The translations under genes were made by a program, and so were the position numbers. Of a stretch of 64,000 nt of DNA, positions 657 to 60,241 are shown in pieces; within the stretch, counting starts at the first letter, position 1, and the number at the start of each line of letters is the position of its first letter. Origin of the DNA: an uncultured Alphaproteobacteria bacterium (lineage in GTDB: Bacteria > Pseudomonadota > Alphaproteobacteria > HIMB59 > GCA-002718135); contig CABZCZ010000001.1 of the NCBI GenBank assembly GCA_902524385.1, positions 62,001-126,000 of the forward strand, written 5' to 3'. Below the pieces are notes generated by a model that saw nothing but the letters and a program-made list of their open reading frames with translations, ran no database searches and was not told where the DNA came from.

Positions 657-3335
657 GTGCCTGACGAAATAGATACATCAAATAACGATAATCAAGAATC
701 TAATAATATACCTTCGGTAAACTTAGAGCAAGAAATGCAAAAATCCTATCTGGATTACGCAATGTCTGTAATAGTTAGTAGGGCACTTCCAGACTGTAGA
801 GATGGCTTAAAGCCAGTTCACAGAAGAATATTGTATTCTATGAGTGAGTCAGGATACAATTTTAATAAACCATACAAAAAATCTGCAAGAATAGTCGGTG
901 ATGTAATGGGTAAATATCATCCTCATGGAGACTCAGCTATTTACAATTCTATGGTTAGAATGGCACAAAATTTTTCTATGCGATTAGAGTTAGTTGATGG
1001 TCAAGGAAATTTTGGATCCTTAGATGGAGATCCTCCTGCAGCAATGAGATACACTGAGGCACGACTTGCTAAAGTATCTGAGAGGCTTGTTGAAGATATT
1101 GATAAAAATACCGTTTCCTTTCAACCTAATTATGATGACACAACAAAAGAACCCTCAGTTTTGCCATCCCAATTTCCAAATCTTTTAGTTAATGGGGCAT
1201 CAGGAATAGCTGTTGGAATGGCGACTAATATTGCCCCACATAACTTAGGAGAAGTCATAGACGCATCTTTATATCTTATTAAAAATCCAGAATGTAATAT
1301 CTCAGATCTTCAAAAATATATTTTTGGTCCTGATTTTCCAACAGGGGGTCAAATAATTGGTAAAAAGGGCATAACAGAAGCATTTGAAACTGGAAAAGGT
1401 GGGTGTGTAGTTAGGTCAAAGACTAGCATTGAAAATTTTAAAAAGGATCGAGAGGCAATTGTACTCCACGAAATACCTTACCAGGTTAATAAATCAAAAT
1501 TATTAGAAAGGATTGCAGAAATTGTAAAAAATGGAATTGTTGAAGGAATTTCGGATTTAAGAGATGAGTCAGATAGAAACGGTGTTAGGGTTGTGATAGA
1601 ATTAAAAAAAGATGTAGACTCAAATATTATTCTCAATCAATTATATAAACATACTTTAATTCAAACGACATTCAATTCTAATATGCTTGCTTTAAATAAA
1701 GGTAAGCCGGAACAAATGAATTTAAAAGAAATTTTATCTTCATTTTTAGATTTCAGAGAAGAAGTAATAATAAAAAGAACATTATTTGACCTTAATAAAG
1801 CTAGAGAAAAAGCTCATATTTTAGTTGGATTGGTTGTTACTAATGAAGATATTGATGAAATTATAGAATTAATAAAAAGTTCAAAAGATACAAAAGAAGC
1901 AAAAGAAAAATTAATTAAAAAGAAATGGAAACTATCTAAACAAAATCTTAATTTTATTAAATCAGTTGAGGATGATACTGTAGAGTTAAAAAACAACACT
2001 TTCAATTTTTCTGATGCACAGGCCAAAGCTATTTTAGAATTAAGATTACAAAAATTAACTGCTTTAGAAAGAGAAGATATACAAAAAGATTTAGAAAGTT
2101 TAATTTTAGAAATTAAAAATTACCTATCTATACTTAATTCTAGGGATATTCTTCTAAAGGAAATAGAAAATGAATTAGCTGAAATTAAAAAAGAATTTGC
2201 AACTGAAAGACGTAGTGAGATTATTGATCAAGAATATGAGCAAGTAGATGATTTAAGATATATTCAACAAGAAGATATAGTTTTAACTATTTCTAATAAT
2301 GGATACATTAAAAGATCACTATTATCTAATTATCGTTCTCAAAATAGAGGAGGTAAAGGTAAAACTGGTATGTCAACAAGGGAAGAAGATTTTGTTAAAG
2401 AAATTCACTTTGCAGATACTCATACTAAACTTTTAGTTTTTTCTTCATTAGGAAAGGTTTATTCTCTAAAATCTCATGATGTTCCTGAAGCTAGTTTAAA
2501 GGCAAGAGGAAAGCCTATAGTAAATTTATTGCCATTTAAAAATTCTGAAAAAATATCAACTTTTCTACCATTACCCTTAGATGAAAATCAGTGGGAAAAA
2601 TTTTATGTTATTTTTACAACTAAAAATGGAATGGTTAGAAAAAATAAATTAATTGATGTTGCTAAGAGTGGAAAAAGAGAATTAAGGGACTCTGGCAAAG
2701 TATCTATTAGGCTTGATGAAAAAGATGAATTAATTGGTGTTAAGCTTTGTACTGTGGATGATGATATTTTACTTTCTTCATCAAATGGAAAATGTTTACG
2801 TTTTCCAGTTGAAAAATTAAGATTATTTTCTGGTTTAAATTCTTCAGGTGTAAGGGGTATAAAATTAGATAAGGGCAATACAATCATTTCTTTAGCAATT
2901 TTAAAACATTCAGTGATTGATATGAGCATTCGTCAAGAATACTTAAGGGCAGCATCTGAAAGTAGAAAAGAAACCTCATCATTCAAAAATGGATTTGAAG
3001 AATTAAATAAAAATGAAGAATTCCTATTAGCTATAACATCAAAGGGTTTTGGAAAAAGATCATCTGCTTATGAATATAGAATTTCAAATAGAGGAGGAAA
3101 AGGCATAACTGGCATAATAACATCTAAAAAAAATGGTGAAGTTGTTGATTGTTTTGTTGTTAAGGATAACGATGAAATTATTCTTGTTAGTGACAAGGGT
3201 CAAATAATTAGAGTTAATGTAAACCAAATTAGAATAGCTGGAAGATCAACAAAAGGTGTATGTATTTTTAAGATTCCAGAAAGTGATAGAATTGTTTCTG
3301 TTTCTAGAATACAAGAATTCGAAAATGATGAATAA
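657..3335 (+). CDS. gyrA: DNA gyrase subunit A (GTG start)
   Basis: [38 protein letters not shown] and [14 protein letters not shown] motif; full length 892 aa. Confidence 0.98.
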
Positions 3336-3819
3336 AATTGGAATATACCCGGGTACTTTTGATCCTATGACTGCAGGTCATATGGACATAATTAAAAGAT
3401 CATTAAGAATAGTAGATAATTTAGTAATAGCTGTCGCAAATAATATTAACAAAGATTCATTGTTTAGTGTTCAAGAAAGAATTAATATTATTAAAAGTGA
3501 TATCACCTCTGTAAATGAATTAAATTCAAAAATTAATGTTACTGAATTATCAGGACTACTTACAACTTTTGCTAAAGATCAAAATGCCACATGTATAATT
3601 CGTGGTTTAAGAGCAGTATCTGATTTTGAGTATGAATTTCAAATGACAGGCATGAACTACCAACTTAACCCCAATATCGAGACAATATTTCTTATGACTT
3701 CTGAAAAAAACTCATTCATTTCATCTAATTTTGTTAAAGAAGTCCATAAACTAGGTGGAGATGTTTCAAATTTTGTTTCTAAAAATACTTTAGAACAACT
3801 TAATAAAAAAAACTCGTAG
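3325..3819 (+). CDS. coaD: Phosphopantetheine adenylyltransferase
   Basis: [45 protein letters not shown] motifs; start overlaps the gyrA 3' end (ATGATGAATAA). Confidence 0.95.
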
Positions 3820-3869
3820 TTAATCACTTGCGCTTACAATATTTGAACTATATAGAATACAAATTCGAT

Positions 3870-3945
<76 letters not shown>

Positions 3946-3951
3946 TCCAAA

Positions 3952-4134
3952 ATGAAAAAAGCAAAAATTAAAAATATTGCATCTGGTATTGAAAAAAATT
4001 GTGATATTTTAAGAAAAAATGATAGCATTCTTGAAGTAGTTCTTGAGGGAACAACAATAAAGATATTACTAAAAAAAAAGACTAATAAATATATCGGGTA
4101 TTTTAAAGAAATGGAATTTGAGTCTGATGGTTAA
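3952..4134 (+). CDS. Small hypothetical protein (60 aa)
   Basis: ORF starting just after tRNA-Lys; no family recognised. Confidence 0.5.
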   Translation: MKKAKIKNIASGIEKNCDILRKNDSILEVVLEGTTIKILLKKKTNKYIGYFKEMEFESDG

Positions 4135-4568
4135 TTTTTATTCCTAATATTTAATTCGTTTTCAAGATCAATTTGTACTTGCTTTAAAATTTCTTTCTTT
4201 GTTTTTATTTTACCTTTCCCTACACCGGGGCAATTTTTAGCAATATCGTTATTCCATGTTTTTGTATTCATATTTTCAGGCCAAAAAGGCCATGTTCTAC
4301 ATTGTATAGGTCTCAACTTATAAACTGTACATTTGTTATCTTTCAAAAATATGCAATTTCCATTATTTTTTTTTAGTTCCTTTAAGTGAATGAAGCCATC
4401 AGTTTTTTGACAATAGTTTTTTACAAAGTTTTGTTCTGTTGTTTTAAATCCAATTGACAATTTTTTAATATCTTTCTTACTTAAATAAACAAAACCATAG
4501 GTACCTCTTGAAACACAACAATTTCCAGAACCCTGGCATTCAAATCTTATACCTTTTTCTATATCCAT
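4131..4568 (-). CDS. YkgJ-type cysteine cluster (zinc/iron-chelating) protein
   Basis: FECQGSGNCCVSRG, NCIFLKDNKCTVYKLRPIQCRTWPFWPEN pattern. Confidence 0.85.
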   Translation of the reverse strand: MDIEKGIRFECQGSGNCCVSRGTYGFVYLSKKDIKKLSIGFKTTEQNFVKNYCQKTDGFIHLKELKKNNGNCIFLKDNKCTVYKLRPIQCRTWPFWPENMNTKTWNNDIAKNCPGVGKGKIKTKKEILKQVQIDLENELNIRNKN

Positions 4569-4573
4569 AACTA

Positions 4574-6655
4574 TTATCCAGCTGTAAGTGTTAATATTGC
4601 TGCATCCCTTTCTTGAATATACAATAAGTTTCGAAGATTTTCTCCTTCTATGTTTTCCAATTTTGGATTATTGGATAATATATCTTCTACCATAATTTTA
4701 GCATCTTCTAATAGATCGTAATCAAAACTAAGATCGGCTACATAAAAAGATGGACTACCAGATTGTTTTTTTCCTAAAATTTCTCCTGGACCTCTTATTT
4801 TTAGATCCTCTTCAGCAATCGTAAAACCATCATTTGTTTGCTTCATTATTTCAATTCTTTTTTTAGAAATTTCTCCAATATTTTCTTTATGTAAAAGTAT
4901 ACAATATGACTGAATATCATTTCTACCAACACGACCTCTCAATTGATGAAGTTGAGCTAAACCAAATCTTTCTGCATGCTCAATTACAATTGTTGTTGCA
5001 GAAGGAATATCTACACCAACTTCAATAACAGTTGTTGAAACCAAAATTTTATAATCCTCATTTTTAAACTTTGTCATTATTTCTTCTTTTTCTATTTCAC
5101 TTAAACGTCCATGCATTAAAAGAACTTTATTTTTGAAATATTTTTTTAAAATTTTGTATCTTTCCTCTGCAGCTTTTAGATCTAACTCTTCAGATTCTTC
5201 TATTAAAGGGCATACCCAGTAAAATTTAGACGATGAATTTTTAATTTTTTCTTTTATTCTATCAATAAGTTGATTTTCTTTTTTTAATGACAAAGAGCTA
5301 GTTATAATTGGTTTACGACCTAAAGGTTTTTCAATTAATTTACTCTCTTTCATATCTCCATATGCTGCTAAAGTTAATGTTCTTGGAATAGGAGTCGCAC
5401 TCATTACTAAAATATTTGGTTTATGATTTTTATGGTTAAATACCATTCTTTGATAAACTCCAAATCTATGCTGTTCATCAATAACTGCTAAACCTAAATT
5501 ATTAAATTTTACAGTATCTTGTATTAAAGCATGTGTCCCAATTATAATATCTGCTTTTCCCTTTGCAATTTCATCTAATTTTTCTTTCCTTTCCTTACCC
5601 TTATCCTTTCCTGTAAGAACAAGCACATTTATTTTTGAATCTTTTAATAAATTTAGAATATTTTCATAATGCTGAAATGCGAGAATTGTAGTAGGTACCA
5701 TTAAAGCAGATTGAAAATTACTTTCAAATACTTTTATCATTGATATTAAAGCTACAATAGTTTTTCCAGACCCAACATCTCCTTGCAACAATCTGATCAT
5801 TTGATTAGAACTTCCTAGGTCCTGAAGTATTTCTTTGATTACATTATTTTGTGAATTTGTGAGTTGAAAATCTAAATTACTATAAAATTTATTTAATGAT
5901 TTATTTTCACTAGTAATTTTAAGACCTTTTTTCTTTTGATTAAAATTTCTCATAATGCCTATAGCTAATTGATGAGATAATAATTCATCAAATGCGAGTC
6001 TTCTTCTAAGCAAATTTTTATTTTTTATATTATTATCACTTGGATTATGAAGATTTTTAACTACTTCATTCCATTGTTTAAATTTATATTTATTTAATAT
6101 TGAAGTTTCTATCCATTCATTAAAATTTGGTAAATTATTTAATATTTGATCGGTTAATTTACTCATTATTTTTTGATTGAGGCCTCTAGTTAAACTGTAA
6201 ACTGCCTCTTTACTTTTAATTATTTTATTATTGTTTAAAGCACTTACATGACTAGGGTGCGTTATTTGAAATGTGTTTCTAAAATATTCTAATTTTCCAG
6301 ATATTAATCTATTTTCATTTGTTGGGAGCATTTGTCTCAACATAGGATGTCTTGCATTAAAATATACTAAATCAATATTTGTATCTCCACAAATACATTT
6401 AATTTTGTAGGGTTGTCTTTTAAACCTTGAAGGCTCATGTTTAATAATTTTTAAATTTAATGTTACTAAAGAATTAATCTCAGCATCATGAATATTTTCA
6501 TAGAATTTTCTTTCAAGAATGTTATTTGGTATATTCCAAACAAAATGAATATTCTTATATATACCTAATTTATTAATAATTTGTTCTAACTTTGGACCAA
6601 CTCCTTTTAGAGAAGATATTGAAGATAATATGTAATTTAATTTTTCTGGTCTCAT
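4574..6655 (-). CDS. recG: ATP-dependent DNA helicase RecG
   Basis: LLQGDVGSGKT Walker A, VIDEQHRFGVYQR, SATPIPRTL, QLRGRVGR; 693 aa. Confidence 0.96.
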   Translation of the reverse strand: MRPEKLNYILSSISSLKGVGPKLEQIINKLGIYKNIHFVWNIPNNILERKFYENIHDAEINSLVTLNLKIIKHEPSRFKRQPYKIKCICGDTNIDLVYFNARHPMLRQMLPTNENRLISGKLEYFRNTFQITHPSHVSALNNNKIIKSKEAVYSLTRGLNQKIMSKLTDQILNNLPNFNEWIETSILNKYKFKQWNEVVKNLHNPSDNNIKNKNLLRRRLAFDELLSHQLAIGIMRNFNQKKKGLKITSENKSLNKFYSNLDFQLTNSQNNVIKEILQDLGSSNQMIRLLQGDVGSGKTIVALISMIKVFESNFQSALMVPTTILAFQHYENILNLLKDSKINVLVLTGKDKGKERKEKLDEIAKGKADIIIGTHALIQDTVKFNNLGLAVIDEQHRFGVYQRMVFNHKNHKPNILVMSATPIPRTLTLAAYGDMKESKLIEKPLGRKPIITSSLSLKKENQLIDRIKEKIKNSSSKFYWVCPLIEESEELDLKAAEERYKILKKYFKNKVLLMHGRLSEIEKEEIMTKFKNEDYKILVSTTVIEVGVDIPSATTIVIEHAERFGLAQLHQLRGRVGRNDIQSYCILLHKENIGEISKKRIEIMKQTNDGFTIAEEDLKIRGPGEILGKKQSGSPSFYVADLSFDYDLLEDAKIMVEDILSNNPKLENIEGENLRNLLYIQERDAAILTLTAG

Positions 6656-6947: not shown

Positions 6948-9900
6948 AAATACAATAGGTCCATCAATTTACAATGTTGAACCCTTTTTCATTTCGCAGT
7001 TCTATCAAAATTCTAATAAATCAATTTTATACATTGGAAAAGATGAGAGAGAAATATCATCGATGGAACAAAAAATTAAATGGTTATTACCAGATGCTGA
7101 GATTTTATTATTTAAATCTTGGGATCAAATACCCTACGATAATGTCTCACCTTCAAAAGAAGTTCAAATAGAAAGATTAAAAACACTTAAAATTTTATCA
7201 AATACCAAAGCAAAAAGAATAATACTCACTACAATTAATTCAATAATACAAAAAATAATCCCTAGATCAATTATTAATTCACAATTTTTTAAAATTTCAA
7301 AAAAACAAAAATTTAAATTTGAAGATCTTATAAATAACCTAGTACTTTTAGGCTTCCAAAGAACTTCTCTAGTGCGTGATAAATCAGAATTTTCTGTAAG
7401 AGGATCAATTTTAGATATTTTTCCCAATGATAGATCTAAGCCAATAAGAATAGATTTTTTTGATGAAGAAATAGAAACGATTTTTGAATTTGATCCAATT
7501 ACTCAAAAAAGATTAAAAGAAATAAATAGTGATTTAGAGTTTAACATTATTAATGAATTAATACTTAATGAACATAATTTAAATCTATTTAGAAAAAATT
7601 TTAGGGAAATATTTTCAGACTATAGGAATAGTCAAGTTTATAACCTTTTTTCTGATAAAATTATTCCATCTGGTGGTGAACAATTTTTGCCTTTATTTTA
7701 CGATAATCTTGAAACATTGTTTGATTATGTTGATGAATACACAATATTATTAAATGATGATCTTAAAAATTTATTTGAAAATAGATTAGAAAATATAAAT
7801 GATTTTTATTTAGCAAGAAAAAATAATAAAGAAAGTTTTTTTCTATCACCTGAATATTTTTACCTTAATAGAGAAAATTTTAAAAAATATTTAGATAATA
7901 ATGAACATTTTTACTTTAATACATTTGATAAAAATAATCATATTAATATAGATGTAAATATTATTCATAATTTATCATCTATTAAAAAAGAAATAGATTT
8001 TAGTTTTATAAATCAATTTTTTACAACAAATTCTAAAGAGAATATAATTTATATATGTTGTCGTAGTAAAGGAAGTTTAGAGAGAGTATCCAAAATATTA
8101 CAGAATAATTTAAACTTAAATTTAAATAATGTAACAAACTTTAATCATTTACTTTCAGATAATATTTTTTTAACAATTCTTGATATTGAGGACTCACTAA
8201 AATTTAATAAATATATTTTTATTAATGAAAAATCTTTATTTGGTTATTTTTTTAATACACAAATATCTAAACCACGTAAACAAACTATTTTTTTTGAAGA
8301 ATTAAATAAGTTATCAATTGATTCTATTCTGGTTCATTCTGAGTATGGTCTTTGTAAGTTTAATAATATAACAAAAATTGAATTAAATGACTCAATTCAT
8401 GAGTGTTTAGAACTAGAATTTTTTGAAAATCAAAAACTTTTCTTACCAGTTGAAAATTTAAGTTATGTATCAAAATACAGTGATGATACTGATGTAAATA
8501 TTATTTTAGATAAACTCGGTGCTTCGCATTGGCAAAAAAGAAAAGCAGATGCAAAAAAGAAAATTAGGGATGCTGCAAAAAAACTCATCTCAATAGCTTC
8601 TAAGAGACTTCAATCTCAATCTTATGAAATTAATACAAATAGCCCTGAATACGATAAATTTGTTAGTACTTTCCCATATGTTGAAACTGATGATCAATTG
8701 AATGCAATTCAAGATGTGATAAATGATTTTTCTAAAACTATACCATCTGATAGATTAATTGTAGGTGATGTTGCATTTGGTAAGACAGAAGTAATTTTGA
8801 GAGCAATTTTTCTTGCTGCAAAATCGAATTTACAATCTGTTGTTTTAGTTCCTACTACAATTTTAGCTAGACAGCATTTTATTAATTTCAAAAAAAGATT
8901 ATCTATTTTTGGTATTAACATTGCAGAAATTTCTAGATTAGTATCTTTAAAAGATAAAAAAGAGATTTTTGAAAAATGCAATAATGGTAATATAGATGTG
9001 TTAGTTGGTACTCATGCTTTATTAAATGATAAGTTAAAATTTAGTAGACTTGGTCTTATTGTTTACGATGAAGAGCAAAAACTAGGAACTATTCAAAAAG
9101 AAAAATTTAAAGAAATAGCTCCAAAAGCGCATTGTATCTCACTTAGTGCAACACCTATTCCAAGAACTTTAAGTATGTCTCTGTCAGGGATAAGAGATCT
9201 TAGTCTAATACTTACAGCACCATTTGAAAGAATGGCAGTTAGGACTTATGTATCACCATTTGATTCTTTGACTATTACAGAAGCTATAAAAAGAGAGATA
9301 TATGGAAGAAAAAATGGTGTTTACTTTGTTGTGCCAAGAAAAAAAGATTTACCTTTTGTCGAACAATTTTTAAATGATAATTTACCAAAAATAAAATTTG
9401 TAATCACTCACGGTCAACTTAGTCCTAAATTATTAGAAAGTAGAATATCAAAATTCTATAATCAAGAGGTCCCTTTAATGCTAAGCACAAATATTATTGA
9501 AAATGGTTTGGATTTACCTCATGTAAATACAATTATAGTTTACCGATCCAACATTTTCTCTTTAGCAGCTTTATATCAATTGAAAGGAAGGGTAGGAAGA
9601 TCTTCTAAACGTGGATATGCTTATATTACATACAAAGAAAATGAATTAAAAGATAATGGTAGAAAAAGATTATCTATAATTAATTCTTCCGATCATCTTG
9701 GAGCGGGTTTTAATATAGCATCTCAAGATTTAGATCTTCGAGGTGGTGGTTCTATTATTGGAGAAGAACAGAGTGGTTTCATAAAAGAAATTGGAACAGA
9801 GCTTTATCATCAGATGCTTGAAGAAGAGATAAATATACAAAAAAGTAAAATTAATTCTAATTTTGTAAAAAAAGATAATTTTCAACCAATTATTAAAATT

Positions 9901-56317: not shown

Positions 56318-56370
56318 ATCGTTCATTTTGAATAATTCAAAACGGAAGTAGACGAAAGTTGAAGGAACGC
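56318..56370 (+). promoter_or_regulatory. Glutamine riboswitch (glnA motif)-like aptamer, copy 1
   Basis: P1 CGTTC(56320-56324)/GAACG(56365-56369); P2 TTTTGAA/TTCAAAA; junction CGGAAGTA; P3 GAC-GAAA-GTT; junction GAAG. Confidence 0.85.
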
Positions 56371-56384
56371 ATGCAAGTTATTAA

Positions 56385-56437
56385 ATCGTTCAATCTGTTT
56401 TTAACAGATCGGAAGTAAGCTAAAGCTGAAGGAACGC
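56385..56437 (+). promoter_or_regulatory. Glutamine riboswitch (glnA motif)-like aptamer, copy 2
   Basis: P1 CGTTC(56387-56391)/GAACG(56432-56436); P2 ATCTGTT/AACAGAT; junction CGGAAGTA; P3 AGC-TAAA-GCT; junction GAAG. Confidence 0.85.
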
Positions 56438-56500
56438 GGATCTTTTTAAAATCCATAGCTAAGCATGAATTATAACAGATTGAAAGGACTGTTATTAAAT

Positions 56501-56554
56501 ATGATAGGTATTAAGTTTGGATTTATAAATACTTCATTAATTCCATTGTACTAA
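56501..56554 (+). CDS. Possible 17-aa leader peptide between riboswitch and ATP-grasp gene
   Basis: MIGIKFGFINTSLIPLY; stop codon 2 nt upstream of next ATG; AAAGGA at 56483-56488. Confidence 0.35.
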   Translation: MIGIKFGFINTSLIPLY

Positions 56555-59744: not shown

Positions 59745-59819
59745 AAAATTTATTTTGCTTCTAAAATAAAGATGAAAATTATGTATCTAAACAAAAAACA
59801 ACAACAATTTATATGAATC

Positions 59820-60139
59820 TTTAAAAATAAACTTTTAGATGTTGCAAAGCGAGTAGCTGAAGATTATGTAAATGGATTAATGAAACTCATATTAAAGTAA
59901 GAGAATAAGCTCTTTTAGTATTAAATTGGTCTTTAGGATCTGAATTTAACGAAGGAGCCGAGACAGGAAATATATATCTTATTTTAACAGAAAATTATGA
60001 AAACTAGGCTGCAATAGACAATCGTTTTATGATTGCTTAAAATCATGAAAGCTATTTTAGAGATGATTTAAATGAATCCTCAAAAAATTGTGAACAAAGA
60101 GTGATTATTCATTCTTTTGATGTCATTCAATCAATATAA
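59820..60139 (+). pseudogene. Possible decayed coding relic (frameshift plus in-frame stops)
   Basis: FKNKLLDVAKRVAEDYVNGLMKLILK* then, in another frame, LLVLNWSLGSEFNEGAETGNIYLILTENYEN*AAIDNRFMIA*NHESYFRDDLNESSKNCEQRVIIHSFDVIQSI*. Confidence 0.45.
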
Positions 60140-60241
60140 ATATTATTAATCATAAATTTACATTTGATTTTTAAAATCATTTCTACATTGTATTGAATAA
60201 TTAGCTTTATTTTATTCATTTGCTAACCTATTTATGAAGTA

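Follow-up and report, generated by a model that had tools for sequence, protein, structure and literature searches.

Tandem glutamine-I riboswitch aptamers upstream of an ATP-grasp/Alpha-E/transglutaminase operon in an uncultured alphaproteobacterium and its relatives

Glutamine-I (glnA, RF01739) riboswitches were found earlier in environmental DNA, with glnA and ammonium transporter genes as their targets (PMC2864571, PMC6316151), and the glutamine-I and glutamine-II switches proven in cyanobacteria are ON switches (PMC6316151, PMC6698751). Tandem glutamine-I aptamers are known too: 157 doublets have been reported and described as pseudo-cooperative (PMC9481103). From a different direction, comparative genomics defined the Anbu operon, composed of ATP-grasp, Alpha-E, transglutaminase and Anbu genes (Iyer et al. 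2009, PMC6376114); passages in PMC5666114 and PMC6376114, citing Hervas et al. 2008, state that Pseudomonas putida induces an operon of this form when nitrogen is limiting. How does the locus described here compare? It lies in a 64,000-nucleotide stretch from an uncultured alphaproteobacterium (the window), where a pair of aptamers with the core sequence, P1-P2-P3 fold and score of glutamine-I riboswitches precedes an ATP-grasp/Alpha-E/transglutaminase operon. In contrast to the known glutamine-I switches, the pair is alphaproteobacterial, has this operon as its target and is probably an OFF switch rather than a proven cyanobacterial ON switch. Like the 157 doublets, it consists of two complete aptamers in series upstream of a gene, but its linker is an arm of a conserved helix; this sets it apart by description, and the doublets may include the same leaders. 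With the Anbu operon it shares the first three genes and their order, whereas the genus of the window and a second lineage have the riboswitch and no detected Anbu gene, and an Anbu-bearing sister family has no riboswitch. The glutamine-II riboswitch (Downstream-peptide, RF01704) has a related glutamine site and likewise a short ORF on its 3' side, but membership in that class was rejected, as the window scores 16.8 bits against a cut-off of 33.

The initial annotation, made from the letters alone, had placed two consecutive units resembling the glnA-motif core in front of the operon and suggested a covariance-model search. A cmscan run over the whole window (gathering cut-off for RF01739, 35 bits) recovers both units where they had been drawn, with scores far above that cut-off (Table 1). 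The alignments also bear out the proposed helices: P1 is the same in both units, P2 is TTTTGAA/TTCAAAA in one and ATCTGTT/AACAGAT in the other, and P3 is GAC/GTT and AGC/GCT, respectively. All RF01739 consensus pairs are intact, every core position is retained, and the P1/P2/P3 three-way junction carries the conserved CGGAAGUA and GAAGGAACGC in both units. The covariation that had been noticed between the two copies extends to relatives; among 27 diverse tandem leaders, P2 and P3 show double-sided pair changes in all four helices, and over the whole structure 95.4% of cells pair, with a covariation score of 0.322 compared with 0.159 for shuffled and at most 0.080 for slid alignments. Judged by sequence, both units are glutamine-I/glnA aptamers and would be expected to bind glutamine. 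Could they have switched to another ligand, such as the operon's own product, a different amino acid or a small peptide? The target is unusual and ligand specificity is not readable from sequence alone, but against such a change stand the complete core in both units and the presence of the same core in the glnA and amtB leaders of this genome, which make it the least probable of the readings considered here.

Table 1. Positions of the leader and operon features in the window, and of the other two tandem pairs of the same genome
Feature	Position	Strand	Evidence or remark
Aptamer 1, glutamine-I riboswitch	56318..56373	+	RF01739 64.8 bits, E 4.7e-12, cut-off 35
P1 of aptamer 1	56320-56324 with 56365-56369	+	CGTTC/GAACG
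Inter-aptamer linker, Px 5' strand (CATGC 56370-56374, AGTTAT 56376-56381)	56370..56381	+	pairs with 56455-56467 in unconstrained fold
Aptamer 2, glutamine-I riboswitch	56385..56440	+	RF01739 65.9 bits, E 2.2e-12, cut-off 35
P1 of aptamer 2	56387-56391 with 56432-56436	+	CGTTC/GAACG
Small hairpin GGAT..ATCC, between aptamer 2 and Px 3' strand	56438..56454	+	predicted fold; GGA/TCC in most relatives
Px 3' strand (ATAGCT 56455-56460, GCATG 56463-56467)	56455..56467	+	invariant block of ATP-grasp leaders
Hairpin enclosing the Shine-Dalgarno-like AAAGGA (56483-56488) of the short ORF	56472..56495	+	
Short upstream ORF, 17 codons, MIGIKFGFINTSLIPLY	56501..56554	+	stops 2 nt before the ATP-grasp ATG
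Circularly permuted ATP-grasp protein, 468 aa	56557..57963	+	PF14403 1.5e-152, PF04174 4.2e-139; solved relative 3n6x
Alpha-E protein, 311 aa	57970..58905	+	PF04168 3.3e-83
Transglutaminase-like protein, 279 aa	58905..59744	+	PF01841 5.3e-23, PF08379 2.9e-11
glnA tandem pair (between glnB and glnA)	L007 (G000:C4) ~7255-7374		
amtB tandem pair	L008 (G000:C2) ~6420-6540		

The genome of the window, about 80% complete, holds three tandem pairs: one before the ATP-grasp operon, one between glnB and glnA, and one before amtB. The last two, together with the partner strand of the linker and the short ORF (Table 1), lay outside the initial annotation, whose statement that the controlled gene is not glutamine synthetase stands only in part: the ATP-grasp operon is indeed a target, but this genome has glnA and amtB under the same control, which makes the operon one member of a glutamine regulon with three targets. 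RF01739 matches occur in 24 of the 25 genomes of the genus and form 66 clusters, 64 of them pairs in which the gap between the two Rfam matches is always 11 or 12 nt. The clusters precede amtB-like genes (31), glnA (19) and ATP-grasp genes (16). The riboswitch precedes each of the 17 ATP-grasp genes in the genus, 16 times as a complete pair and once (G022) at a contig end that falls inside aptamer 2. Full-length NtrC above the curated cut-off was found in none of 41 relatives (incomplete genomes), as would suit a nitrogen response built on riboswitches. Single-cell genomes labelled uncultured Alphaproteobacteria show the tandem pattern again, as do MarineAlpha5 bins; no exact match was found in viral contigs. 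As MarineAlpha5 is related to HIMB59 (PMC8879329), a group described as AEGEAN-169 (PMC10308909), marine Alphaproteobacteria, probably members of AEGEAN-169/HIMB59, can be named as hosts of the glnA and amtB riboswitches seen earlier only in environmental DNA. In several relatives amtB is present twice, with about 2 kb between the copies and a tandem pair at each one. The sole two single aptamers of the genus, L040 (G001) and L066 (G011), each stand before a diverged Amt-like gene with 28% identity to amtB.

What does the third target encode? The circularly permuted ATP-grasp, Alpha-E and transglutaminase-like genes named in the initial annotation are confirmed by strong Pfam matches (Table 1), and they are consecutive, as in the Anbu-type peptide-synthesis operon. 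This little-understood set of proteins is an amide-bond-chemistry system. The Anbu subunit itself was sought with a query identified by its matches to 5loy, 5nyj and others; it was found in none of the 25 genus genomes and none of the 32 genomes of the second lineage (both sets incomplete), whereas the same query matches 13 of the 16 sister-family genomes. The set is widespread: ATP-grasp homologues occur in 152 of 375 alphaproteobacterial genomes sampled. Behind the transglutaminase gene, at about 59760-60160, lies the remnant of a fourth gene, interrupted by stops and frameshifts; G201 has an intact copy (L116:6430-6792, 120 aa). The idea that the remnant is a broken Anbu gene was rejected; neither the remnant (Pfam) nor its 120-aa relative (Pfam and NCBIfam) has a domain match, so there is no reason for the Anbu label.

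Outside the genus, the riboswitch is rare. RF01739 matches were found in six of the 387 genomes of a sample of the class, with all those beyond the genus in one family (f10, the sole family of its order in the genomes compared), and a sample of the phylum (399 genomes) added no further carriers. In f10, 23 of 32 genomes have the aptamer, in each case as a single copy directly 5' of the ATP-grasp gene, whose product is 57-62% identical to that of the genus; the ATP-grasp family is limited to these same 23 genomes. One f10 genome has an extra aptamer about 570 nt 5' of an amtB-like gene. A survey of homologous operons, as the initial annotation had advised, thus finds the aptamer at 17 of 17 ATP-grasp genes in the genus and 23 of 23 in a second order, and the unusual target set is conserved with it. 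Glutamine sensors stand before the operon, and the second, marine-type lineage never has the operon without the sensor; the nitrogen status of the cell is thus very probably what controls it. The same tandem device on glnA and amtB would place it in a nitrogen-scarcity regulon. By comparison, RF01739 has no match in the 16 genomes of the sister family. The ATP-grasp protein of this family is 48% identical and the gene adjoins the Anbu gene, with no detectable Alpha-E or transglutaminase homologue nearby at five loci examined. At the sister-family locus L119, for example, Anbu (2099-2824, minus strand) and ATP-grasp (2930-4375, plus strand) lie back to back, with no riboswitch, Alpha-E or transglutaminase gene alongside. 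Are the genus and f10 independent cases? In a tree of the ATP-grasp proteins with their closest homologues in the class, the two fall in one clade (99/95), at a place where long branches meet and for which the tool issued a warning; this single clade suggests that gene and riboswitch may have moved together. The association is strong in both lineages and may be one evolutionary case.

The tandem leaders have a further element in common. The linker (CATGC..AGTTAT) is predicted to pair with a block 3' of aptamer 2 (ATAGCT or ATAACT..GCATG), forming a helix referred to here as Px. Of 155 distinct tandem leaders, 150 retain both blocks, and Px is common to all three leader types (ATP-grasp, glnA and amtB). 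Its sequence is too conserved to show much covariation in the 27-leader alignment, in which one Px helix is also out of register in 11 glnA-type rows; the internal-loop sizes of the two strands, however, change together (2/2 in 12 leaders, 3/3 in 11, 1/2 in three and 3/2 in one). That the linker forms a conserved helix with sequence beyond aptamer 2 suggests that the two aptamers share one platform. What could the platform act on? In glnA leaders, the bases of the Px 3' strand and those before it complement the translation start (AUUUCAUA with UAUGAAAU; -6.9 kcal/mol compared with -1.7 for shuffled starts), and in amtB leaders they complement the Shine-Dalgarno (SD) sequence (AUUUCCAUA with UAUGGAG; -8.2 compared with -3.6 kcal/mol for shuffled sequences), the extra C of the amtB-type block matching an extra G of its target. 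One subgroup of ATP-grasp leaders has a good match (CCAUAG with CUAUGG), and in the subgroup that includes the window no more than 4 bp match the start. The Px 3' strand and the bases before it are therefore a possible anti-start element. An alternative pairing of the P2 arm of aptamer 2 with the SD hairpin was seen by eye, breaks in L085 and was dropped. It is tempting to go further and suppose, tentatively, that the two aptamers serve a single expression platform, with the linker arm tied to the anti-start element and one translational decision, and that streamlined marine alphaproteobacteria, seemingly without NtrC, would in this way have a glutamine regulon of three targets, among them the ATP-grasp/Alpha-E/transglutaminase system as a nitrogen-scarcity function.

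Between the platform and the operon lies a short ORF. Each of the 37 distinct tandem leaders of ATP-grasp genes contains an ORF of 16-22 codons whose end lies -6 to +8 nt from the ATG of that gene, and in 35 of them it lies at -6 to +1; in shuffled sequences, an end falls within -8 to +5 in 8.6%. A local hairpin encloses the SD of the short ORF in every one of the 15 distinct versions (mean z -2.4); this was checked sequence by sequence, as the MAFFT alignment does not bring the two subgroups into register. Is the short peptide itself the main controlled product, as in Downstream-peptide leaders, with the operon read via coupling only? The constancy of the ORF between switch and operon would agree with this, and short ORFs are typical 3' of glutamine-II aptamers (PMC2864571), but the peptide differs strongly between subgroups (MVKKLDNKKIFYSNLKRFTP compared with MIGIKFGFINTSLIPLY) in a way that looks like a coupling device, and in f10 the ATP-grasp start follows the aptamer by 34-46 nt or less, which is too short for such an ORF. 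These two points make translational coupling likelier than a functional peptide, and control of the peptide for its own sake is very unlikely.

In which direction would glutamine act? The f10 leaders are the most informative. In two of them (G447 and G448; leader GAAGGAACGCATATG) the start codon lies 2 nt past the GAAGGAACGC of the aptamer, so that the conserved aptamer strand is the only candidate SD site, which argues for an OFF switch. In the other f10 leaders the start is 34-46 nt 3' of the aptamer and is often preceded by a pyrimidine tract that complements the SD (e.g. CTCTTTC with GAAAGAG). Forcing the aptamer to fold makes the SD costlier to open in 17 of 21 such leaders, the mean rising from 3.1 to 6.2 kcal/mol; the increase (+3.2) compares with +0.5 for a shuffled spacer (p 1e-4, for sequences that are not independent). 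No intrinsic terminator was found 3' of the aptamers in the window's leader, and control through one was dropped; a translational OFF switch is then the best reading and agrees with the co-regulation of glnA and amtB. The tandem leaders behave differently under folding: in ATP-grasp leaders, constraining the aptamers alone or with Px does not change access to the SD of the short ORF, amtB leaders with Px enforced go in the opposite direction in 14 of 29, and Px is predicted both with and without P1. Folding is thus suggestive of glutamine-dependent control for f10 only, and the OFF direction for the window's leader is drawn from f10, from the co-regulated genes and from the nitrogen induction described for the related Anbu operon. 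An ON switch of the cyanobacterial gifB kind, in which binding frees the translation start and the operon is active at nitrogen excess, has in its favour that all cyanobacterial glutamine-I and -II switches tested so far are ON, and if aptamer folding favoured Px, Px would hold the anti-start block away from the start. But a bound aptamer in G447 and G448 would mask the only candidate SD, folding of the other f10 leaders points to OFF, the cell is expected to need glnA and amtB, which have the same device, at low and not at high glutamine, and the Anbu operon is said in the passages on P. putida cited above to rise under nitrogen limitation. An ON switch is unlikely on this balance. It is probable that the tandem riboswitch represses translation of the operon at high glutamine and permits it when glutamine, and with it nitrogen, is scarce; a coupling based on Px is proposed.

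How might such a coupling work? The base directly 3' of P1 is a C in both units (GAACGC) and invariant among the aligned leaders. In the glutamine-bound crystal form this base, C60, pairs with G23, and in the ligand-free form G22 and G23 are disordered (PMC5393176). C60 of aptamer 1 is also the first base of the linker. Binding of glutamine to aptamer 1 would occupy C60 and so compete with the end of Px; a weakened Px would free the block 3' of aptamer 2 to mask a translation start, which in the window's leader would be that of the short ORF. Since translation of the short ORF would deliver ribosomes to the ATP-grasp start, masking would silence the operon as well. The Px leader thereby offers a testable design of how tandem aptamers may share one switch.

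The nitrogen link of the Anbu-bearing operon form is already known, at least from the passages in PMC5666114 and PMC6376114. New are a direct glutamine sensor on the operon, present at every copy of the gene checked in the two lineages, and the lack of a detected Anbu gene in both, together with the operon as a riboswitch target, Px in all three leader types, the upstream ORF and a glutamine-riboswitch regulon outside cyanobacteria. A search of open-access papers (subscription literature lay outside its scope) found none that brings together 'glutamine riboswitch' and 'transglutaminase'. The sensor that accompanies the operon points to glutamine as the signal and to a scarcity of nitrogen as the likely condition, and hence to when the product of the operon should be sought. 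Aptamers of this class also occur in a different setting: in the f10 genome G429, three identical RF01739 matches (L274, L275 and L276) lie on separate contigs, each 3' of a structural-protein-like ORF and 5' of a 77-aa ORF. These contigs look like phage DNA, in agreement with the glutamine riboswitches reported in marine phages (PMC9004378).
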